Below, piece after piece: positions 23,695-47,653 of a stretch of DNA of 62,772 nucleotides; position 1 is the stretch's first letter; each line of letters starts with the position of its first letter. This stretch comes from Gluconobacter kanchanaburiensis NBRC 103587 (lineage in GTDB: Bacteria > Pseudomonadota > Alphaproteobacteria > Acetobacterales > Acetobacteraceae). Where the stretch lies: the NCBI RefSeq assembly GCF_007988905.1, contig NZ_BJVA01000016.1, positions 1 to 62,772 of the forward strand, given 5' to 3'. The notes under the pieces are model-generated. The model was given only the letters and a program-made list of their open reading frames with translations. It did not search any database and was not told the origin of the DNA. The position numbers and the translations under genes are program-made.

Positions 23695-24489
23695 ATGGAC
23701 ATTTCCATCTTTCGGCAACTTGCCGATCAAACCGCTCAAATTATCACGTCGTGGCCAAACGATCTAATTGCACAATACCAGTTTCTGAGCCTGCCCCAGA
23801 CAGGAAATTATACGAAGGACTTCATAGGAGATGAGTTATACAATCGCATTCGTGAAGCATTCATTCCAGGCGAAATTAAAATCGCTGAACAATGCAGAGC
23901 GCTAATAGGTGAACTTATCTATGATCAAATTTTAGACAGCCGACCTATCGAGCCATATTGTGAACTGCTAGAGAAAATTAGAGATGCTACTCAGTTCCAA
24001 CAGACAGTTGGAAATAATACCTGCGAAGAATGGCGTAATGCTATCGAATATGCTCATCTCAGCGTTCAGCAAATAAGTCTTAATACAACAAAAAGTTTAC
24101 AACGCACATATCCAAACTACTTTGCAGTGGAATTCGCTACTCTACGTCTGAGGAGTATAGGATACTCGATCGATCGTGATGGAAGCAAGATGACTCTGAG
24201 CGACCAAATGGAGTTGCACTTAGTCGCAAAAATAGAAAGCTTGGTTCACGAGTTTGGAGGTTTATCTGTCACAAGACAGATTAGTGACTTCCTACGAGCA
24301 GTGTATGACGAACAACAAGAGCGATACCACCTTGTCATTCTTAAACCAAAAGTATCAGAACCCCAGCAACCATTAATACCTTGGGGATACTTATTCCAAT
24401 TAGCCGTGAAGCATTACCAAGGCGGAAAATCCAGTGGAATAGCTGATCATAGAAGATTCAAATTCTTTTTTTCTCTGTATTTTCAATAG
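23695..24489 (+). CDS. Hypothetical protein, C-terminus formed by att flank
   Basis: A 264-residue protein that I do not recognize. It is mostly helical by appearance and has no signal peptide or membrane segment. The region at about residues 200-225 (LSVTRQISDFLRAVYDEQQE, then RYHLVILKPK) is the most ordered-looking. Its last codons (FFFSLYFQ, then TAG) lie in the 27-base sequence that also flanks the tRNA gene at 57690-57714. The natural C-terminus may therefore have been cut by integration or excision. The position, inside island II against the att site, suggests accessory or defence cargo, but no function can be claimed. Confidence 0.6.
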   Translation: MDISIFRQLADQTAQIITSWPNDLIAQYQFLSLPQTGNYTKDFIGDELYNRIREAFIPGEIKIAEQCRALIGELIYDQILDSRPIEPYCELLEKIRDATQFQQTVGNNTCEEWRNAIEYAHLSVQQISLNTTKSLQRTYPNYFAVEFATLRLRSIGYSIDRDGSKMTLSDQMELHLVAKIESLVHEFGGLSVTRQISDFLRAVYDEQQERYHLVILKPKVSEPQQPLIPWGYLFQLAVKHYQGGKSSGIADHRRFKFFFSLYFQ

Positions 24490-25970: not shown

Positions 25971-26003
25971 GGGGCGTCGCCTTTATGCGACGCCCCGTTT
26001 TGT
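25971..26003 (+). terminator. Rho-independent terminator after fic
   Basis: A 10-base perfect GC-rich stem, GGGGCGTCGC/GCGACGCCCC, with loop CTTTAT, followed by GTTTTGTT. It lies 38 bases after the fic stop. It could also act on transcripts from the converging GTPase operon. Confidence 0.85.
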
Positions 26004-26121: not shown

Positions 26122-26784
26122 CTAATGATGCGCTACGGATCCCGAAATATATAATATCACGGCAATGCATAAGATTAGTATGAGAATACCAAGCGTTGCG
26201 ACACATAATATCTGCATGAATCCTGTTTTGCGCTCGAGCTCAGTTATGCGGATTTGCAGTGCGGCGTTTTTTTTGTCGATAGATTGGGAAACTATGCTCA
26301 CAGTGCTAGATAGAGATTCACTGAGTTTCTCATTGCGCTGCATTGCGGCTTCTTGGGCAGCCGCGATGGCACTATTCAGTTCATGCACCTGAGTTTCAGA
26401 TTGCAACTTAAATTGCACCTGCAATGCTTCGCACATAGCTACGATATTTAGTCGCGCTCCGTGAATTTTCGTACTTAGACCCGCATTAGATTCGGTAAGG
26501 ACCTGTATCAGCTGTTCGCTTTGTTGCGTGGAAATATCTCCAACTTTAGTAATATTGGAATTTAAATACTTGGTTTGCACTTCGAATTGCTGTTCCAGTT
26601 CTTCTTCGACTAGCTCCGTAATCTTCTTGGGAAGCCTGGGCAACTCTATGCAAGATTTTGTCAGAGTGGAGACTGAATCTGATAATTTCTGGACTTGTGC
26701 GGTCAGCCCGTTCAACTGTGTGGACAATACGCGATCAAGCAACGCGCGTAATTCGTCCTCCAACTGCTCATCTGTGTTGTTCAT
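26122..26784 (-). CDS. Coiled-coil protein with C-terminal membrane anchor (GTPase module, gene 3)
   Basis: A 220-residue protein without a recognizable family. Residues 1-185 are rich in heptad-like E/L/Q patterns (DEQLEDELRALLDRVL; ITELVEEELEQQFEVQTKYL) and probably form a long coiled coil. Residues about 190-213 are one transmembrane helix (ILCVATLGILILILCIAVIL) with a short tail, so it is tail-anchored. Its ATG overlaps the stop of the preceding GTPase gene (ATGA), so translation is coupled. It is the last gene of a three-gene operon. I infer that it tethers or signals for the two GTPases at the membrane. Confidence 0.65.
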   Translation of the reverse strand: MNNTDEQLEDELRALLDRVLSTQLNGLTAQVQKLSDSVSTLTKSCIELPRLPKKITELVEEELEQQFEVQTKYLNSNITKVGDISTQQSEQLIQVLTESNAGLSTKIHGARLNIVAMCEALQVQFKLQSETQVHELNSAIAAAQEAAMQRNEKLSESLSSTVSIVSQSIDKKNAALQIRITELERKTGFMQILCVATLGILILILCIAVILYISGSVAHH

Positions 26785-28733
26785 TGCAAATCCTCTGTGC
26801 TCGCCAACAATGTAGTAAAGCGCTCGCGAAAGCGATAGCTTATGGTCACCGCCTCGATGAGTTGCAGAAAGCGCTTGGTTGGAACGGTCTCTGTGATCAT
26901 GGCATCGCGACGGGCGCGTAGATCTTTGCGCAGAGCTGCGCGAAGTATTTCGTCGAACTCCGACGCACGCTGCCTGTCGGCGGCGAGGGCACCCCGGAGG
27001 TTTGCGATCTCTTTGGCCTGTTTCATCATTGCATCTTGTTGTGCTGCTCCGTCGCCTTCTAACTGCTCAATACGCGCCTGTACGCGCTGCAGGCCACGTC
27101 TCATCCGCGTCTGCTGTTGCTTTAGTGCGTTCTTCTGAACTTTAACGGCTCTATTGCACGCCTCAGCGAAGCGCTCGCGCAGCCAAATGGTAGCTTTCTC
27201 CATGCAACTGCCGAGTTGAGCCCGGTCTGCAATGAACTTGGGTCCTGGTACCAAGAGCCAGTAATTATCGAATATAGGACTGTCGATCTTCTTGATGAAT
27301 TCCTCGAAGAAGAATGCGGCGTCGTCGTTGTTTTCTTTCTCTCGGAGCTCCGCTATCAGGAATGTGAGGATTTTAGATGTGTATTCGTTATCAGAATCTA
27401 GACTTTCCAGTCTGGAGATACAGCGCCAGAGAGCTGTCTGGAAGTTTAGGCTGAAGCGACGGAGGTAACTTTTTTTCATGGCGCTGGTATCGTCAGCAGC
27501 AGGTAGCCGTGGCAGCATTTCTTTCAGGTTTTTTTCAAATTCTAAACGCACTTCATGGGAAGCGTTGGAAATCGAGTTTTCGTCCCCAATTTCGACAAGA
27601 CGTTTTTTACGCTTTTCTTGCTGTTTTTTGTATTTATTCAGCGCAGATTTTCGTTTTCGCATAGCTAAGTCCGCGTCTCTCTGTGCGTCGTTAAGATGCA
27701 TTAACGCCGCGCTGTCTAGTTTGACCGCAATGTTGAAGGCGTCACGCACGTGGTGCAAGCGGCCCAGGGGATCCGCAGCATTAGCGATACGTTCACACAA
27801 TTCCTGGCGTAACTCATTCATTAGTGGGCCAGCTAGTTCACGCCGTCGCGCGGGAGCATTGGCCCAGGAATCACCGAAATCCAGCGGGAAAAGGCAATCC
27901 GGGGGCGGGGGCGTGATGCCGAAAGTATCCAGTTGCTCAGCACAACGCTGCCGCAGCGAGCTTACGGTGCACGTCTTTCCCGGTGTGTCGAGCCAAATCT
28001 GTACCGACTCAAACTTGCAGGCGTAAGTGGTGACTATACAGAAGCGGGCGGGGGAGAGGCGCCAATCCAATGCCCACAAACCGTCTTCCGTGAGTGTTTC
28101 CGGATTCAGAAAACTCAGACTATCCGCACGAGTTATCAGCAGCACGAGATCCGCCGTAGGTACGTATTTTTGCGCTACGCTTCGAACAAATTCTGCTTCG
28201 TTTTGATTTTGGGGATGGATACCAGGTAAGTCAAGAATCCGCACGCGTGGCAGGGCGTGTCGGTCCGGATCGAAATATCGTCGTGGAATGTATAATGTTG
28301 CAACGCGCGTGTGTTCCATCCCCCCGGCTTCGACATGCTGGCGAATGGTCTTAAGTGCGTCCTTCAGACTATCGACACTCAGTGGAGTGCTATTATCGAG
28401 CCGCCAGTGCTCATCGGCACTTTCATGATAGATCATCGGAATCGATGTAGAAGATGTTCCGACCGGTTGGCCCGCACGGAGTGTATCACTTACATTCTTT
28501 AGTTCAGAAGTGGAAACGCCTAGAAGCTCTAGTAATAGTGTAGTTTTACCTACTTGAGTGGGGCCACAGAGAACGATCGTGGTCTCGCTCTTGGCTTCGG
28601 GGAGCTGGCACTGGGTCCACGTACTCAGTTCCATACGGAAATGCTCATAGGCGTTCAGCGCCCAGCTCTTACGCGCTCTTTCTCCCTTAGCCCAGAGGGA
28701 TTGCAATGTTGGAGCGGGTTTGCCCATAGCCAT
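26781..28733 (-). CDS. Dynamin-like P-loop GTPase (GTPase module, gene 2)
   Basis: A 650-residue protein. The P-loop GPTQVGKTT is at residues 57-65. Candidate switch I threonines are in VGTSSTSIP (91-99). The G3 motif DLPG is at 168-171 within VRILDLPGIHPQNQNEAEFV, which resembles dynamin-family large GTPases. TRAD at about 201-204 may be G4. The C-terminal half is helical and basic, with coiled-coil stretches (RKRKSALNKYKKQQEKRKKR; LKQQQTRMRRGLQRVQARIE). The start ATG 28733 overlaps the stop of the gene before it (TAATG). The pairing of two large GTPases recalls the Eleos (LeoA/LeoBC) defence system, but I cannot show direct homology. Confidence 0.75.
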   Translation of the reverse strand: MAMGKPAPTLQSLWAKGERARKSWALNAYEHFRMELSTWTQCQLPEAKSETTIVLCGPTQVGKTTLLLELLGVSTSELKNVSDTLRAGQPVGTSSTSIPMIYHESADEHWRLDNSTPLSVDSLKDALKTIRQHVEAGGMEHTRVATLYIPRRYFDPDRHALPRVRILDLPGIHPQNQNEAEFVRSVAQKYVPTADLVLLITRADSLSFLNPETLTEDGLWALDWRLSPARFCIVTTYACKFESVQIWLDTPGKTCTVSSLRQRCAEQLDTFGITPPPPDCLFPLDFGDSWANAPARRRELAGPLMNELRQELCERIANAADPLGRLHHVRDAFNIAVKLDSAALMHLNDAQRDADLAMRKRKSALNKYKKQQEKRKKRLVEIGDENSISNASHEVRLEFEKNLKEMLPRLPAADDTSAMKKSYLRRFSLNFQTALWRCISRLESLDSDNEYTSKILTFLIAELREKENNDDAAFFFEEFIKKIDSPIFDNYWLLVPGPKFIADRAQLGSCMEKATIWLRERFAEACNRAVKVQKNALKQQQTRMRRGLQRVQARIEQLEGDGAAQQDAMMKQAKEIANLRGALAADRQRASEFDEILRAALRKDLRARRDAMITETVPTKRFLQLIEAVTISYRFRERFTTLLASTEDLQ

Positions 28734-30835
28734 TAGTTCAGTGGCGGGAGGAGGTTATCTAGTGTATCGGCCGCTTTTTGCAATCGACGCAGGGCACGGG
28801 CTAAACGATCCCGCTCATAGACGCCTGTACTCAGTCCCAACTTCTTGCGCTGTACTTCCATGACGCGATCTTTGACCTTTTCGATGGTTTCATCGAAGCT
28901 GGCCGCATAGGCTGCGCGGTGGGCGTCCTCTAGAGCGATTAGTACCGCTTCTGCTTGGCCAAGCCGCTCTTTTTCTGCGGCGCGAACTAGCAGACCGACA
29001 GCTACGATGCCGGTCCCAGCCACTGCCGCGGCGCCGGCGCCGGCGATGAAAATATCCGCGGACAGCAGTAGGGCGCCCGCGACCCGGTCGATGCGTCCTG
29101 CATCCTTGCCCTTCGGCACGCGGCTTTTGAGTTCATTGATCAGCGTGTAGAAATTACTATCGGGCTTGACGCCGAATACGGCGCCGATGGTAACAACCAC
29201 CTCATTCTGAATGCCCATCAGCGCGTTAAAATTATCCTTCGCCTGGGTGGCAGCGTCGAGGGCGGACATGTTCTCTCTTTGGGGCCCTAGGCTTTTTAAG
29301 TCGACCGCGGCAAGTTGGGACAGCCGGCTGAATTCCGCCGCCAGCGCGGGCAAGAGCGCAATATCCTCATCCACGCTGTGGCTCGGGTCTCGTTCATCCT
29401 CCGCGGTAAGAAGTATGGTAAGATTTTTCTCTGCCTCGGACGGGAGAACCCATTGGTTCCGGTTCGTCATTTCCTGGTAACCGGTACGCTCGACGAGGGG
29501 GGTCTCGTGTGAAAATGCCGGGCGAGGAAGTAGCTCCATGCCAGTGTCACTGAATTTCTCCAATGTTGCATGCGTTAGGGCCTGCAGATGGCATTCCTGG
29601 CAGTCGCCTGGGGCCTTCCAGGCCTGCTCGATCAAGGCGCGCTGGCGTTCCAGACGTTCGCTCGTGGATCTGGTCAGCCCACCGAGCCATCCTTGGAACC
29701 CCTCATCAGGCTTGACGGCTTGCAGAACATGTTGCCAGGCTTCGTCTCGATGCTTGGCGAGTGAGCTGTTCAGTTGCTTGAGATAGGAGGTGCGCAGTTT
29801 CCTCGCGGCTTTGTCATAAGGTTTGAGTTGCCCCTCGATGAAATCTTCCCATAGGTCGTCTTCCTTGTCTCGATCTATGGACAGCTCTTCTTCGACATCG
29901 TTGGTGAGTTGTCGGACTTCGTCCAGCAATTGGGTGAGATGCTTGGTGCGTAAGCCCTGGACGCTGCTAGCGCTGTTGCCAGTGCTTCTAATCGCGTCGA
30001 TGAGCGCGCTGCTCCATTTTTTGATAAAGTCGGGGTCGAAACTGGTGTCGAGACCAGTGCAGATAACGGTGCTGACCTGGCCACCAGCGGCTTTAAAGGT
30101 TTGGGCCGCGCTCGCACGCAGCTCTTCACGTAAAACTTCGTCGTCTTCCTCGGTCTTGGTGATGATCACCACCGGTTCGATGCCAGATAATTCGCGGTCG
30201 CGCAGGATTTCCTGATTAGCTGCGTCCGCAAGACGCCTTTGATCTGTAACAATAACGCAGCCGCCAGCCAGCGCCAGGGCCTGACGCATCAACTCCTGCC
30301 AGACTTCATTCAGACGGTGGCGGTGCTCGTAGCCGGGCAGTAGCAGCAGTGCCATGCTGCTGGCGTAAAAATGCCGCACCGGAACTTTGAGGACGGGCAA
30401 TAAGTAGGAGGGATTGGTGCCGCGTGTGGCATGATGAAATTGCTCCGCATCGACCCGCTTCAACTCCACAGTATAGACGCCCTGCACATCGGTGGGGGGA
30501 ATAAGCTGATACACCCAGCCTTCGGGTTCGGTAACATCCGGAGATTCCTCAATGAGGACGGGGATGCGCTCCCCCTGTCCTTCATTAGCGGGAAGCCACT
30601 CGGAACTGTTGCCTATGTCATAGAGTTGACGGACCAAAGTGGTTTTTCCGGCGCCTTGGGTGCCCCCAATAGCCACCACTACATGTTGCGAGATAAGTCT
30701 GGCGACGAATATACGCTGTAGGAGAGTATCTAATTTAGCACGCAGAGCCGCGTCATTTTTTAGGGTGAGTGTACCGCGTAACTGCAAGGACGCACTCAGC
30801 ATATCATCTAAAACGGTTGTCGATACCAGAAACAT
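28733..30835 (-). CDS. Dynamin-like P-loop GTPase with membrane segment (GTPase module, gene 1)
   Basis: A 700-residue protein, first gene of the operon, start ATG 30835. The P-loop GGTQGAGKTT is at residues 57-66 and a G4-like TKTE lies in PVVIITKTEEDDE. The DxxG position reads LLLPGYE, so the G3 aspartate may be missing. The middle is helical with many charged residues. Residues about 583-617 form a Gly/Ala-rich hydrophobic stretch (IFIAGAGAAAVAGTGIVAVG) like the membrane-inserting paddle of bacterial dynamin-like proteins, followed by helices. Together with gene 2 it would make a membrane-remodelling or membrane-sensing pair. No known family name is certain. Confidence 0.75.
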   Translation of the reverse strand: MFLVSTTVLDDMLSASLQLRGTLTLKNDAALRAKLDTLLQRIFVARLISQHVVVAIGGTQGAGKTTLVRQLYDIGNSSEWLPANEGQGERIPVLIEESPDVTEPEGWVYQLIPPTDVQGVYTVELKRVDAEQFHHATRGTNPSYLLPVLKVPVRHFYASSMALLLLPGYEHRHRLNEVWQELMRQALALAGGCVIVTDQRRLADAANQEILRDRELSGIEPVVIITKTEEDDEVLREELRASAAQTFKAAGGQVSTVICTGLDTSFDPDFIKKWSSALIDAIRSTGNSASSVQGLRTKHLTQLLDEVRQLTNDVEEELSIDRDKEDDLWEDFIEGQLKPYDKAARKLRTSYLKQLNSSLAKHRDEAWQHVLQAVKPDEGFQGWLGGLTRSTSERLERQRALIEQAWKAPGDCQECHLQALTHATLEKFSDTGMELLPRPAFSHETPLVERTGYQEMTNRNQWVLPSEAEKNLTILLTAEDERDPSHSVDEDIALLPALAAEFSRLSQLAAVDLKSLGPQRENMSALDAATQAKDNFNALMGIQNEVVVTIGAVFGVKPDSNFYTLINELKSRVPKGKDAGRIDRVAGALLLSADIFIAGAGAAAVAGTGIVAVGLLVRAAEKERLGQAEAVLIALEDAHRAAYAASFDETIEKVKDRVMEVQRKKLGLSTGVYERDRLARALRRLQKAADTLDNLLPPLN

Positions 30836-38887: not shown

Positions 38888-40534
38888 TCAAGGCTCTGGA
38901 TTGTGATGCCGACCAATCGAGCGGGAGCTGTTTGGCGTGTGTGACACAGGTGCCGTCGCGTCCCTTTTGTTAAATGCAGCCATCGCGTCCAGAGATTGAC
39001 GTAACTGCCCCTGCTGCTTCAGGTCTCTGATGGTGTTTCTGACAGTGTCGGGAAGTGCTTTTGGAGGCCGTGCGACGTCAAGTAACGCAGTGATATGTTC
39101 TTCAGCATGATCTTTTTCAGGCTGACGCTCGTCGTGCCATTTCTCAATAACACGTGCACGCTGCTGCTCCGCTTCCCGACAACGGTCTTTAATCCAATCA
39201 CGTCGGGTTTTCTCGCTGAGTAAAGTCTGAAGCAGCTCTTGCCTGTTCTCCAGATACTGTTGGCGGCTCATTTCCTGTTCCATAGGAACCGGGATCTGAA
39301 GCGGCGCAGGTTTCCGGCTGCTTAGTCCGAGATGATAGAGGATAAATTCGACCACATAGCGCAGGATCTCAGCCAGCTGGGCTAAAGCCTGCTGGAGCTG
39401 CTTTTCAGCTTCCGAAATTTTCCTCTGTCTTGAGAAAACCCATTGCTGGGCCTCAAGATCATTCAGGTCTTTGCGTGCCTGAAGAACTGCATGATTGGCG
39501 TTTCTGAGCCTTTTCCAGCCGTCTTGCATCATCAGGATTATGCAGTGTGTCTGAATGTCCAAAGGACTTTCCGGCCCATAGCGTTTTTCCAAGGGATGTC
39601 TTGCATTCAGAACCGCCCGTGCGGCTTGCGTCTCTCGTTTCCAGTCTTTCAGATAGATCTGAAAGCCTTCGCTGAGTTTTTCCGTATCCAAAGGTGAGGC
39701 AATGGACGGGAGGTGCCTTTGTATGGCTTTCACTTCGGCCTGAGCACGCTCTGCAAGTCTCTGTCTTTGCGGCTCTGACAAAAGCGATGGTTCGGTCCAG
39801 AGCAGCTCTTGTTCCGCCTGATTGACAGAAGCTCTTTGCTGACGTCGAAGATCGGAGCGTTTTAGCCGTCGTGCGACGGGACGTAAGTCAATCGCAGCAT
39901 GGATTGTGGCCTCTTTCTCTAAAAGCTCCCGGAAATCCTTCATTCTGACTTTCGTCAGCCGCGTGAAGGAACCGATCAGCATTCCGTCACGGGTCTCAAT
40001 GATATGAGTATTCCGACGCCCGTCTGTGCGATCCCCTGATCTCATACGCCAGTTCTTGGTGGCTAACAGATTTCGAAAGGCTGTCAGGTCATTGTCTGAG
40101 GCTTGCCAGAAGCTCAGGATTTCGCGCCTGGCTGTCGGGAGGTCAAAATCTTGCCGCTCCGTTATCCTGCGAGCTTGTGATGTATAGGCTGCAACCGGAC
40201 GAACAGATTTGTCTTCAGGCACAAGGGCTATAATTTTGTCCGCAGCGTCGTGGTGACCTTCTGCTCTCAACGCCTTTGCGATAGCGTGATCATGCCGTTG
40301 TCGGCAATCTTCTCCTGTAATGCATCTGCTGCATTTTGCAGATCTTTGTATGGGGGGGGTCTGATCGAGTTCGGCATTAAAGAGGTCTAGCAGTTGTGCA
40401 CCCGTGCCGAGCGTTTCTTCAGGCTTGAAATTCAGACAATCCGCAGAAAACCCAGCGCCGCAAAACAGAATACCACCGCCGTTGCGAGCTAGGTCGAGAC
40501 GCCTTGCCAACTCATCCAAAGAGTTTAGTTCCAT
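38888..40534 (-). CDS. Chimera: SIR2-like N-terminus fused to relaxase C-terminal fragment
   Basis: A 548-residue open frame made of two unrelated parts. Residues 1 to about 80 (LARNGGGILFCGAGFSADCL, GTGAQLLDLFNAEL) match the start of SIR2-like NAD-binding proteins; GAGFSAD is the nucleotide-binding loop. From RHDHAIAKALRAEG onward the rest follows the relaxases at 5827 and 49013 from about residue 150 to the end (PVAAYTSQARR, ERQDFDLPTARREIL). The relaxase catalytic HUH motif and most of the SIR2 catalytic domain are absent. It probably arose by a deletion joining a defence gene to a mob gene. The frame has stayed open for 1.6 kb, so it may be expressed, but enzyme activity is unlikely. Confidence 0.75.
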   Translation of the reverse strand: MELNSLDELARRLDLARNGGGILFCGAGFSADCLNFKPEETLGTGAQLLDLFNAELDQTPPIQRSAKCSRCITGEDCRQRHDHAIAKALRAEGHHDAADKIIALVPEDKSVRPVAAYTSQARRITERQDFDLPTARREILSFWQASDNDLTAFRNLLATKNWRMRSGDRTDGRRNTHIIETRDGMLIGSFTRLTKVRMKDFRELLEKEATIHAAIDLRPVARRLKRSDLRRQQRASVNQAEQELLWTEPSLLSEPQRQRLAERAQAEVKAIQRHLPSIASPLDTEKLSEGFQIYLKDWKRETQAARAVLNARHPLEKRYGPESPLDIQTHCIILMMQDGWKRLRNANHAVLQARKDLNDLEAQQWVFSRQRKISEAEKQLQQALAQLAEILRYVVEFILYHLGLSSRKPAPLQIPVPMEQEMSRQQYLENRQELLQTLLSEKTRRDWIKDRCREAEQQRARVIEKWHDERQPEKDHAEEHITALLDVARPPKALPDTVRNTIRDLKQQGQLRQSLDAMAAFNKRDATAPVSHTPNSSRSIGRHHNPEP

Positions 40535-40971: not shown

Positions 40972-42674
40972 TCATCCAAGAAGGGGGAGGTTGAAGGCGG
41001 TATACTGAATTGCTTCGACCGTTCTCTTCAGGTTCTGCATCTCAATGCCGCTCAGATATGTCGTCGCTCCTTGGCTCTTATGGCTGGCTTCATGTCCCAG
41101 TAGGGCATCAATCCAAAGCTCCCGAATATCGCTGTTCTGGTTTCGCAAAAGCGTCGAGACCGTATGCCGGAACCCATGGAATGTGACTGCTGGGGGAAGC
41201 TCCATCATCATTTTGTAGCGTGAGAAGGCCCGACTGAAGTCAGCACCACGATTGCCATCCGTTGATGTCTTCAACTCAGAGAAGAGATATTTCTCGCCCG
41301 TCTTCTGGACATTCAGAATGCCCCAGTCGAGTAAGGTGGAGTGGATGGGAACGAGGCGTTCTCCAGCCTCAGTCTTAGGCGACCAACTGTCTTCCGGATG
41401 GGCACAAATGCGGAAGCATAGAACGCCATCGATAGTCTCAATGTCCTCATTGCGCAGATTGCAGATTTCTCCCAGACGCATGCCGCTATACGCCGCGACC
41501 ATCGTGATGCCTTTGAAAGTATCAGCAGGAATACTGCACAAGGGCCATGGCGTTTGCAGGAGTTTGTCCATCTCTTCTGCTGTCCAGGCGCGACGCGGGT
41601 TCTTCTTGGTCAGATTGAAGTCCCAATTTCCCCAAGGGTTTTTCTCAACCATGTCTCTTCGGAGTAGGTCGTTCCAAAGCGATGAGAGGCGCATAAAATG
41701 GTTTTTCACAGTCTTTGCGCTCAGCGTCGATACATCGTGAGATGCGGCTCTTTCGATTTCCTCTTGTAGAGAGAGGTTTTTGGTTTTGCCATGTGATGCT
41801 GGCAACGAGAATAAGACATCCCTGAAATCACCGGCGACTTTGCCATCGATGTTCCGTATCGACAGGTCTCCGAAAGCTTCGATGAAGAGCGCCACGGTTC
41901 TGCTGGTGTCTCTCTGAGTTTCGAGGCTTTTGGTAGGCTTGCTGTTCAAAAAGCGGTTAAGAGCCTCAGTGAGCAAAATGGCGGGCCGTGTCTTCGGTGT
42001 TGCGGTGACCTTTTTGGGCTTTGTCTCAGTTTCAGCAGTTGCAGGCACTGAAATCTCGGTTGCAGCACTCCGACTGTCGAGAGCCTTGGTGAAGGTGCTC
42101 AGAAGGGTGTCATGAAGACGCTTAATTTCGTTCTCGAGAACTTTTTTCTCAGCGGAATTGATATTGGCTGCTTCGATGAGCTTTCGTGTCATCGCTGTCA
42201 TATGATTCTGGCTGTCGAGCGCGACGGCAATGACTTTTTCGATGCCCGCGCTCAAAACACGGACGTCGTGAGCGTGTTGCATCACGCTTTTGTAGTATTT
42301 GATTTGTCCGGCCATCTCAGCAGATGAGATGTCATTCTTTCGAATGGTCTCCTGTGTTGCCAACATGTCTTTGTATTTTTTCAGCAAAGCCCGATAGACG
42401 TCGTCTTTAGTTTTGAAGCCGTGCTTCGTCATGAAGTCCGCGTTATCGTCCATGGGCATCACATTCATTTCAGAAGGCGGTTTGGAACGGCTCACGCTGC
42501 GAAGTCCTCTAAACACATCACTCGTCTGCGCATGCAGCTCTGCTGCGCGACGTCGGGCTTCAACTTTGCCTGCTGTTCCCAGCGAGATCCAGATCTCGTT
42601 TTTTCGAGAATCGGACGAAGTGCTTCGGGTACCACACGGCGAAAGTGGAATCGTGAACCAACTTGTTTGAGCAC
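40972..42674 (-). pseudogene. Tyrosine integrase 2 (island III), frameshifted
   Basis: A tyrosine recombinase of the same type as integrases 1 and 3 but clearly diverged. The main frame (40972-42516) has the catalytic boxes AYSGMRLGEICNLR, TFHGFRHTVSTLLRN and LWIDALLGHEASHKS...TYLSG. The N-terminal arm-binding part is in another frame (SRFHFRRVVPEALRPILEK). The shift lies in the six-T run near 42598-42603; the alternative reading gives NEIWISLGTAGKVEARRRA, matching the other integrases. GTG 42674 is the likely original start (MLKQVGSRFHFRR). The att copy lies 94 bases to the right. Confidence 0.85.
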
Positions 42675-45974: not shown

Positions 45975-47351
45975 CTAACTCCAGCCTTTTCTGAAGATGT
46001 CGTCGGGATAGATAATGGCCTCGACGGTCTGTTTGAGATTGGCCGTCGTAATGCCGCTGAGATAGGTCGAAGTGCCTTGGCTTTTATGGGTTGCCTCGTG
46101 GCCCAAAAGCCTATCAATCCAGATTTCCCGAATATCGGCTGAAGCGTTTCGCAATTGCGTGGAGACGCTGTGTCGAAACGAATGGAACGTAATTTCCGCA
46201 GGCAGCCCAAGGCGGGTTTTCATGGTCGAGAACGACCGCCCGAAGACTGTCCCTCGAACACCGTCCTTCGACGTGTTGAGTCCGGGAATGAGATAGGGGC
46301 CGTCCACTGTGTCTTTCAGGATGAGAAGTCCCGCCTCAATGAGTCTGGAGTGCACCGGGACAATTCGTGTTCCAGCGTCGGTCTTGGGTGACCATCCGCT
46401 GTCTGTGTGCGGCTGGATAACAAAGCAGGGAACGCCATCAATCGTTTGGAGGTCTTCTGTTCTCAGATGACAGATTTCCCCCAGCCTCATGCCTGAATAA
46501 GCCCCTATCATCGTGATAAGCCGGAATGTGCTTTCAGAGACAGAACTACTGCGCCAATCTCCTGTCATGAGGGTTTGCAATTCTTGAGTGGTCCAGCCCC
46601 TACGGATGGTTTTGGAGCCATTCTCAAAGCTCCATCCGGTCCATGGGTTCTTTTTGACTAATTCCCTTTGAAGTAACTGGTTCCACAGGGCTGAGAGCCG
46701 CATCATGTGGTTCTTCACGCTCTTGCCGCTCAGGGTGGGGCGTTCGTCTTCTCTGGCACGGTCTGCCTCCTCTGTGAGTGTGAGACTGCTTTTCCGCTTT
46801 CCGAGGGATGCGGGCAGGGAAAACAGCAAGTCCCGGAAGGCTCTGGCCTTCTCTCCTCCGATGATAGAAACAGGCGCATCTCCAAAGGCTCGCAGGAACA
46901 GCTCTACGGCTCGCTGCGTCGCTTTTTTGGTATCGGCGCTGGCATGTGGGTTTTTGAGAACAAAACGCGTCAGAGCCTCAGACAGAAGCAAGGGTTGGCG
47001 TTTACTTTGCATCTTGGGAGCCTTCCGCATGTTCTGCGGTCGTAGTCTCGGTTTTGAGGCGGGCAAAGGTATCGCTTCAATGCCTATCGGTGCTTCGAGC
47101 AAGCGATGTAGGTCCTTCAGTGCGTCCCGCACGTGCGGGACAGCGTGTCGCTCCTGTCCCTCAGTCAAAGCCCGAGAGGTCTCGTCAAAAAGTTCGGTCG
47201 TTCTTGCATGCAGCAACGAAGCCCGTTTGCGGGCTTCGCTCTGATAGCCTGTTTTTAAAGAAACCCAGATTTCCCGCTGGTCCAGAACACTACGAAGGGC
47301 AGGGGGGACGATTCGGCGAAAGTGATAGGTGGTGCCGCGAATACGGAGCAT
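45975..47351 (-). CDS. Tyrosine integrase 3 (island IV)
   Basis: A 458-residue tyrosine recombinase nearly identical to integrase 1; differences are scattered, with a few residues deleted in the linker. Catalytic boxes: AYSGMRLGEICHLR, TFHSFRHSVSTQLRN and RLLGHEATHKSQGTSTYLSG. An in-frame extension upstream to 47582 exists, but it runs through the att site, and MLRIRGTTYHFRR at 47351 matches the integrase 1 start. It lies 88 bases left of att 4. It appears intact and is a candidate mobilizer of island IV and relatives. Confidence 0.93.
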   Translation of the reverse strand: MLRIRGTTYHFRRIVPPALRSVLDQREIWVSLKTGYQSEARKRASLLHARTTELFDETSRALTEGQERHAVPHVRDALKDLHRLLEAPIGIEAIPLPASKPRLRPQNMRKAPKMQSKRQPLLLSEALTRFVLKNPHASADTKKATQRAVELFLRAFGDAPVSIIGGEKARAFRDLLFSLPASLGKRKSSLTLTEEADRAREDERPTLSGKSVKNHMMRLSALWNQLLQRELVKKNPWTGWSFENGSKTIRRGWTTQELQTLMTGDWRSSSVSESTFRLITMIGAYSGMRLGEICHLRTEDLQTIDGVPCFVIQPHTDSGWSPKTDAGTRIVPVHSRLIEAGLLILKDTVDGPYLIPGLNTSKDGVRGTVFGRSFSTMKTRLGLPAEITFHSFRHSVSTQLRNASADIREIWIDRLLGHEATHKSQGTSTYLSGITTANLKQTVEAIIYPDDIFRKGWS

Positions 47352-47438
47352 GAGACGTCCTTCGGTGGGGAAGGACGGTGGAGCAAAGGATACCTTTGCC
47401 CCATTCAGGCCGAAAAACCGTTCATTTCCGGGAAGTCT

Positions 47439-47464
47439 GTGGTGCGAGCTGCGGGACTCGAACC
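47439..47464. repeat. att core 4 (tRNA-Leu 3' end copy)
   Basis: An exact 26-base copy of the tRNA-Leu 3' end between islands IV and V. About 120 bases to its right (to about 47590) closely match the sequence right of att 1 (3664-3790), so islands II and V begin with the same end sequence. Confidence 0.88.
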
Positions 47465-47653
47465 TAGTGTTGCGGGACGCGTCCCGCACACAAACCGTTG
47501 AAAATACGTCGAAAACGCCGACGCCAGTCTTTCCATTGCCATATACTCGTCGTGAGTCTGGCAGACATTCTGGTAACGTCAAGACGCCATGAAAGCGATA
47601 TGAGCTGCACGTGTTTGGACGACTGGAAGCTCATCAGAGGGAAGGGGGCTGAG

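Follow-up and report, generated by a model that had tools for sequence, protein, structure and literature searches.

The window analysed here, contig NZ_BJVA01000016.1 of Gluconobacter kanchanaburiensis NBRC 103587 at its full length of 62,772 nucleotides, carries a minus-strand operon of three open reading frames (ORFs) at positions 26122-30835, which encode proteins of 700 (gene 1), 650 (gene 2), and 220 residues (gene 3). This trio is most likely a mobile anti-phage module that combines a heterotypic pair of dynamin-like protein (DLP) GTPases with a dedicated tail-anchored docking protein. The operon, its co-conservation, the modeled dynamin folds, the losses of GTPase motifs, the membrane anchor, and the defence-island context are all findings of this analysis. 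Genes 1 and 2 overlap by 1 bp, and genes 2 and 3 by 4 bp. An earlier note on this DNA had already described these stop/start overlaps, together with a P-loop and a Gly/Ala-rich segment in gene 1, a P-loop and a DLPG motif in gene 2, and a single C-terminal membrane helix in gene 3. All of these features are recovered in our analysis (Table 1), the helix by hydropathy.

The models predict that both large proteins adopt the dynamin fold, with a G-domain followed by a long helical bundle. AlphaFold models, based on alignments of 28 sequences for gene 1 and 30 for gene 2, have mean predicted local distance difference test (pLDDT) values of 70.7 and 84.0, respectively, and bacterial and mitochondrial dynamins are the best structural matches for both. 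Foldseek identifies BDLP (2j69) as the first PDB match of gene 1 (E = 4.9e-11), followed by IniA, Cj-DLP, OPA1, Drp1, Mgm1, and mitofusin. The same structure ranks first for gene 2 (E = 5.3e-9), with Drp1, Cj-DLP, IniA, and MxA also among the matches and LeoA at rank 15. Nostoc BDLP1 and mycobacterial IniA lead the Foldseek matches of gene 1 and rank high among those of gene 2, but sequence identity in these alignments is only 11-13%, and we know of no such trio for either protein. The window copy of gene 2 narrowly exceeds the Pfam cut-off for Dynamin_N (29.2 bits vs 27); no Pfam model scores over its cut-off with the window copy of gene 1. Profile-profile comparison of the two genes with each other gives 93% over 214 G-domain columns.

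Neither protein has a full set of G1-G4 motifs. The aspartate of DxxG is missing from all 28 gene 1 proteins, and NKxD is missing from all 30 aligned gene 2 proteins, in which the G4 place reads TTY or a variant; the switch-I S-x-T is present in all 30. These complementary, invariant losses in two G-domains are newly found here. Judged from the sequences, they put single-chain GTPase activity in doubt, but not the dynamin fold, and each G-domain looks incomplete alone and complete together with the other. The two may therefore complement each other, with a precedent in Campylobacter jejuni Cj-DLP1/Cj-DLP2, a heterotypic DLP pair found among the best structural matches of genes 1 and 2. According to the available portions of the source, the Cj-DLPs are active only as a complex and inactive unless both are present; the same portions describe an HcpA-like gene in their operon and mention no tail-anchored rod partner (PMC6104087).

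Gene 3 has no Pfam model over cut-off, and its sequence reads as a putative docking motif, a helical rod, and a tail anchor. The hydrophobic maximum is C-terminal in all 25 aligned homologues and is followed by 1-15 residues. A strict tail-anchor test is passed by 22 of these 25 proteins. In a background of 155 other neighbouring ORFs of comparable size, from which gene 3 copies were excluded, it is passed by 2. Ahead of the anchor, the proline plus glycine content is 2.5-8.6%, against a mean of 12% in the background ORFs. Homologues range from 139 to 339 residues, plus one of 462. The N-terminal motif, approximately L-x-x-L-L-x-x-V-L-x-x-P-L, occurs in 31/31 homologues and 1/155 background ORFs, though the pattern was fitted to the same homologues on which it is counted.

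A profile search of genome contigs with the gene 2 alignment yielded 28 loci, whose titles name Acidocella, Croceibacterium, Sphingomonas, Novosphingobium, Pararobbsia, Zoogloea, Variovorax, Burkholderiaceae, Cupriavidus, Janthinobacterium, Massilia, Serratia, Citrobacter, Klebsiella, Erwinia, Rouxiella, Pseudomonas, and Acinetobacter. All three genes are present in the same order in every locus. Gene 1 lies upstream of gene 2 throughout, as two ORFs in L010 and truncated by the contig end in L026. Gene 3 lies downstream in all 28, with 23 copies found by profile (that of L026 in two pieces), those of L018, L021, L034, and L035 by inspection, and that of L033 as the final part of a longer ORF. 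In 23 of 29 loci (the 28 genome loci and one viral contig), genes 1 and 2 are separated by -4 to +3 bp, and the gap between genes 2 and 3 falls in the same range in 13 of the 24 loci measured. Pairwise distances correlate at 0.987 for genes 1 and 2 (28 loci), 0.917 for genes 2 and 3 (25 loci), and 0.910 for genes 1 and 3 (24 loci); shared ancestry alone accounts for some of this correlation.

Searches with gene 1 only, covering 790 species, were positive in 8/398 Pseudomonas and 8/392 Oxalobacteraceae genomes, centre genomes counted. Two of these 16 positives are the centre genomes, and the loci of the other 14 were opened. Thirteen contain all three genes (gene 1 in pieces in L078), and L079 has a gene 1 fragment only; seven of the 14 are strains already in the gene 2 set and seven are new. 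The Pseudomonas loci L075-L078 form a diverged branch of the trio, with gene 1 profile E-values of about 1e-126 to 1e-151 where the gene is whole and gene 3 proteins of 210-462 residues. Within the family of the window, gene 2 is found in 2 of 200 genomes, its own included, and it is single-copy in its own 2.9-Mb assembly. The nearest named trio belongs to Acidocella facilis. When window positions 20001-45000 are compared with that locus as DNA, one 4188-column match (73%) covers genes 1 and 2 together with the beginning of gene 3, and the only other similarity is a 59-bp patch. Because the match is confined to the trio genes and this patch, the trio appears, on sequence grounds, to move as a cassette. 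Plasmid records also carry the genes, 12 with gene 2 and 11 with gene 1. On one plasmid, from Sphingomonas sp. NIC1 (L006, 7000-11168), a 1250-residue ORF has a helicase-like first half and a gene 2-like second half lacking the P-loop region; a phospholipase D-like gene precedes it and a 139-residue gene 3 relative follows. This ORF is possibly a recombination product of two island systems.

The neighbours of the trio point to a role in defence. Up to five ORFs per side were taken from the 29 loci, giving 271 ORFs, of which 232 were scanned; the remaining 39 comprise four gene 3 copies, ORFs of 169, 157, and 118 residues, and 32 ORFs below 115 residues. At E ≤ 1e-10, 127 families of PADLOC (2023 release) match one set of 115 neighbour proteins and 371 match the other set of 117; the families are correlated and overlap, so these figures are not gene counts. 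A control of 95 genes in eight stretches from unselected relatives matched 3 families. Among the neighbour matches listed are DrmD, DrmA, DruE, BrxL, BrxH, ZacB, and ZacC, as well as an oligonucleotide cyclase, a two-transmembrane (2TM) effector, viperin, and IetA.

Of 5426 Escherichia coli genomes, 5 carry near-identical DNA covering at least 80% of the operon, three on the chromosome and two on a plasmid. Of the chromosomal copies, two are close to ydeT; one has AbiTii and the Hachiman gene HamA beyond it, the other HNH and restriction endonuclease genes. The third sits away from ydeT. Two partial copies that were opened (L037 and L043) are also near ydeT, with an ABC-three-component system downstream. 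What is left is either the end of gene 3 alone or a shortened gene 1, which suggests turnover in a variable island. On the Gluconobacter plasmid pGOX1, gene 2 is divided over two ORFs and a search with the gene 3 profile gave no match ahead of an IS5 copy; the Mov34/MPN/PAD-1 and patatin genes that follow presumably resemble a cyclic oligonucleotide-based antiphage signalling system (CBASS).

Location among defence genes, patchy distribution, and mobility, taken together as the mark of an anti-phage system, are thus all found for the trio. The same distribution bears on the alternative that these genes form a module outside defence, serving envelope stress, vesicles, or plasmid maintenance, and are simply carried along by islands and plasmids. 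The plasmid copies would suit such a module, as would the reduced vesicle release of LeoA/B mutants of enterotoxigenic E. coli (ETEC), reported in the accessible part of the source (PMC4159319). However, the patchiness in E. coli, Pseudomonas, and Oxalobacteraceae fits defence better, as do the defence-rich neighbours and the remnants in a variable island, and we consider a non-defence module quite unlikely.

Eleos, which we take to be a defence system (it is also in PADLOC), likewise has two DLPs in one operon and a defence context. The trio could be a divergent LeoBC-LeoA system of this kind, since both are DLP pairs and, at E ≤ 0.01, the PADLOC LeoBC model is matched by 20 of the 30 gene 2 proteins (best 1.4e-13) and the LeoA model likewise by 20 of the 30 (best 9.7e-8). 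The LeoBC matches indicate at the sequence level that distant kinship of the G-domains is real. However, the window copy of gene 2 matches LeoBC (3.6e-7) over residues 49-205 only, which is part of the G-domain, and gene 1 of the window matches neither the LeoBC nor the LeoA models at E ≤ 1. Profile-profile probabilities for Pseudomonas LeoA and LeoBC are 31% and 61% with gene 2 and 3% and 29% with gene 1, in comparisons that extend over just 37-109 columns. The LeoBC model is found at 1e-20 in 24 of 249 Pseudomonas genomes, with no match at that threshold in the trio carriers G592 and G603.

Nine Pseudomonas Eleos loci were opened, and their ORFs of at least 90 residues were judged. LeoBC and LeoA are whole in seven, with D-x-PG in both proteins; L107 has split LeoC, LeoB, and LeoA, with DxPG in LeoB and LeoA, and in L106 no LeoB was seen among the ORFs chosen. 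No tail-anchored rod gene without a P-loop adjoins the pair in any of the nine, and none of their ORFs is matched by the profile of gene 1 or of gene 2 at E ≤ 1. Weak matches of the gene 3 profile to LeoBC/LeoC proteins (9.7e-6 and 4.9e-4) probably reflect helical composition bias. LeoC of the split versions (L106 and L107) combines a C-terminal anchor with a P-loop, whereas gene 3 has no P-loop; an anchor and P-loop are likewise given for ETEC LeoC in the part of the source at hand (PMC4159319). With neither a full-length LeoBC/LeoA match nor the two-gene (or LeoC, LeoB, and LeoA) composition found, membership of Eleos was rejected, and a divergent Eleos system is very improbable.

The DO-GTPase/GAP1 conflict systems provide another comparison, as they too pair GTPases, often with membrane components, according to the portion of the source available (PMC7159879). 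At E ≤ 0.01, Pfam DO-GTPase2 has matches in 14 of the 28 gene 1 proteins, the best at 4.7e-5. In six gene 1 proteins taken singly, the match is confined to 22-25 residues at the P-loop and reaches at most 22.8 bits, under the cut-off of 27; it is listed at 0.05 for four of the six. The best Pseudomonas copies of DO-GTPase2 score 158-222 bits in frames of 318-358 residues. Gene 3 has no match to the GAP1 models at E ≤ 1, and the Pfam neighbour scan, which covered set A7, has none among the matches listed. Neither a domain over cut-off nor a GAP1 protein was found, and it is scarcely credible that the trio belongs to these systems.

Further genes were considered as components. In the window, a Fic gene (Pfam Fic, 2.3e-19) is convergent with the trio on the gene 3 side; on the other flank are the type I restriction genes hsdR, hsdM, and hsdS, and then an Mrr-type endonuclease. 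Two phage-type integrases lie further along, at 40972-42516 and 45975-47582. Fic was rejected as a fourth component because the window and Acidocella Fic proteins are only 28% identical, compared with 76%, 61%, and 52% for genes 1, 2, and 3, and because SoFic matches 1 of 115 neighbour proteins in the first set and is absent from the 25 families listed for the second (117 proteins). Several enterobacterial copies of the trio are preceded by two small genes of 141 and 129 residues (L038-L041, 8615-9575; L003, 5388-6348; L036, 4387-5348). They are possibly regulators or island cargo, and were rejected as components because an insertion sequence occupies their place in the Klebsiella copy.

Two other ORFs of the window deserve mention. 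Beside the Mrr endonuclease, a 548-residue ORF (38888-40534, minus strand) has no Pfam or PADLOC match; its N-terminus reads ILFCGAGFSAD, which resembles the way SIR2-like domains begin. A 264-residue ORF (23695-24489, plus strand), flanked by a transposase-like ORF and the Fic gene, matches nothing in Pfam or NCBIfam and PADLOC only weakly (0.014).

Table 1. Coordinates of the trio and of its sequence features in the window.
Feature	Position	Strand	Basis
Gene 1, 700-residue DLP, inactive-looking G3, hydrophobic segment at paddle place	28733..30835	-	ORF; AlphaFold; Foldseek
Gene 1 P-loop (G1), within GGTQGAGKT, residues 58-65	30641..30664	-	K64, T65 in 28/28
Gene 1 G3 place LLPGYE, residues 165-170, Leu for DxxG aspartate	30326..30343	-	L165 in 28/28; after model strand 161-165
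Gene 1 G4-like motif TKTE, residues 226-229	30149..30160	-	E229 in 28/28, K227 in 26/28; end of strand 222-226
Gene 1 hydrophobic Gly/Ala-rich segment, residues 595-613	28997..29053	-	Hydropathy; comparable segment in full-length homologues
Gene 2, 650-residue DLP with long helical bundle	26781..28733	-	Pfam Dynamin_N; AlphaFold; Foldseek
Gene 2 P-loop (G1), GPTQVGKT, residues 57-64	28542..28565	-	K63, T64 in 30/30
Gene 2 G3 motif DLPG, residues 168-171	28221..28232	-	D168, G171 in 30/30
Gene 2 G4 place TTYA, residues 235-238, without NKxD	28020..28031	-	Y237 in 30/30; end of strand 231-236
Gene 3, 220-residue helical, Pro/Gly-poor, tail-anchored protein	26122..26784	-	ORF; hydropathy, composition; conserved position
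Gene 3 conserved N-terminal motif LRALLDRVLSTQL, residues 12-24	26713..26751	-	Pattern in 31/31 homologues
Gene 3 C-terminal membrane helix, residues 192-210	26155..26211	-	Hydropathy; mean Kyte-Doolittle 3.26, sole hydrophobic segment
Terminator-like hairpin, 10 pairs, in the Fic-gene 3 intergenic region, readable on either strand	25971..25996	.	Consensus scan; not evidence of function

We lean towards a membrane-docked heterotypic dynamin machine that acts at the inner membrane in phage defence, the defence role being drawn from context. For its docking, pairing, trigger, and outcome we infer the following course. Gene 3 would sit in the inner membrane through its C-terminal helix, and its conserved N-terminal motif would hold one or both dynamins. 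The products of genes 1 and 2 would pair, with gene 2 supplying DxxG for hydrolysis and gene 1 the TKTE motif for base recognition. Disturbance of the membrane by phage may then cause the hydrophobic segment of gene 1 to insert, after which the DLP pair would polymerise or tether and remodel the membrane, as Bacillus subtilis DynA does in delaying lysis. We favour sealing of the membrane or a delay of lysis over deliberate damage to it. The latter is what abortive infection would entail, with the same complex rupturing or depolarising the host's own inner membrane ahead of phage release. Anatomy and context fit that outcome equally well, and membrane-active effectors are common in defence systems. 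However, DynA, the experimentally studied phage-protective dynamin, guards the membrane and delays lysis in the available passages of the source (PMC8844932), and abortive infection appears unlikely. Like the machine proposed here, DynA brings two DLP units together and protects against phage at the membrane; it differs in being one fused protein rather than three genes, and those passages describe no dedicated anchor protein (PMC8844932).

A more specific form of the membrane-docked machine, which we put forward tentatively, is a new defence system with a split-competence dynamin pair, the hydrolysis motif in one subunit and the base-recognition motif in the other, that a dedicated tail-anchored receptor brings to the inner membrane. 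It would be the bacterial equivalent of Drp1 with its receptors on mitochondria, directed against phage. In eukaryotes, Drp1/Dnm1 are recruited by tail-anchored receptors such as MFF. FIS1 is reported as a Dnm1 receptor as well. The likeness to Drp1/Dnm1 with FIS1/MFF, in which a dynamin is recruited by a tail-anchored helical protein, is an analogy only, and such recruitment in the trio is hypothetical.

Several results weigh against or limit the proposed anti-phage DLP module, in addition to the overlap of the PADLOC families and the fitting of the gene 3 pattern already noted. Whole-chain TM-scores of the gene 1 and gene 2 models to known dynamins are low (about 0.2-0.3), and we therefore claim the fold but not the detailed shape. 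Dynamin_N scores for two other gene 2 proteins taken singly (21.9 and 15.7 bits) are under the cut-off, and confidence in the gene 1 model is low at the hydrophobic segment. Gene 2 homologues may recognise the base through another motif, so that loss of NKxD is not necessarily functional. For gene 3, three of 25 proteins do not pass the strict tail-anchor test, although in these too the hydrophobic maximum is terminal. The PADLOC control came from the family of the window, without taxon matching. In a phylum-wide draw of 398 genomes, gene 1 was found in none but the window's own. Finally, a phage collection gave one matching record, with 27% identity over 36% of gene 2, and two scans of viral contigs gave one contig.

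The observation made in the earlier note is confirmed. Its placement of the genes in an island between Fic and a type I restriction system is correct, and the PADLOC neighbour scans agree with the defence context it assumed. The dynamin-like nature of both large proteins is upheld by the AlphaFold models and Foldseek, and separation from Eleos by the model, profile, and locus comparisons. Two findings that it had named as damaging did not materialize: no named system with the same three components was found, and gene 3 accompanies the GTPases in all 28 loci. Its interpretation as a whole stands in part: DLP identity, conservation and anchoring of gene 3, distinctness from Eleos, and context hold, whereas phage defence and membrane surveillance are still conjectural. 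Among the papers listed by our literature searches, we recognised none that describes a DLP pair accompanied by a third, tail-anchored gene; these searches did not reach the majority of subscription articles and preprints, so novelty is unproven.

Paired bacterial dynamins are common, and how they are switched on and placed at membranes is poorly known. A portable operon that carries its own anchor, together with complementary and seemingly obligate losses in its G-domains, makes both switching and placement testable in E. coli. If the proposed function is true, the trio adds a membrane-remodelling branch to bacterial immunity.

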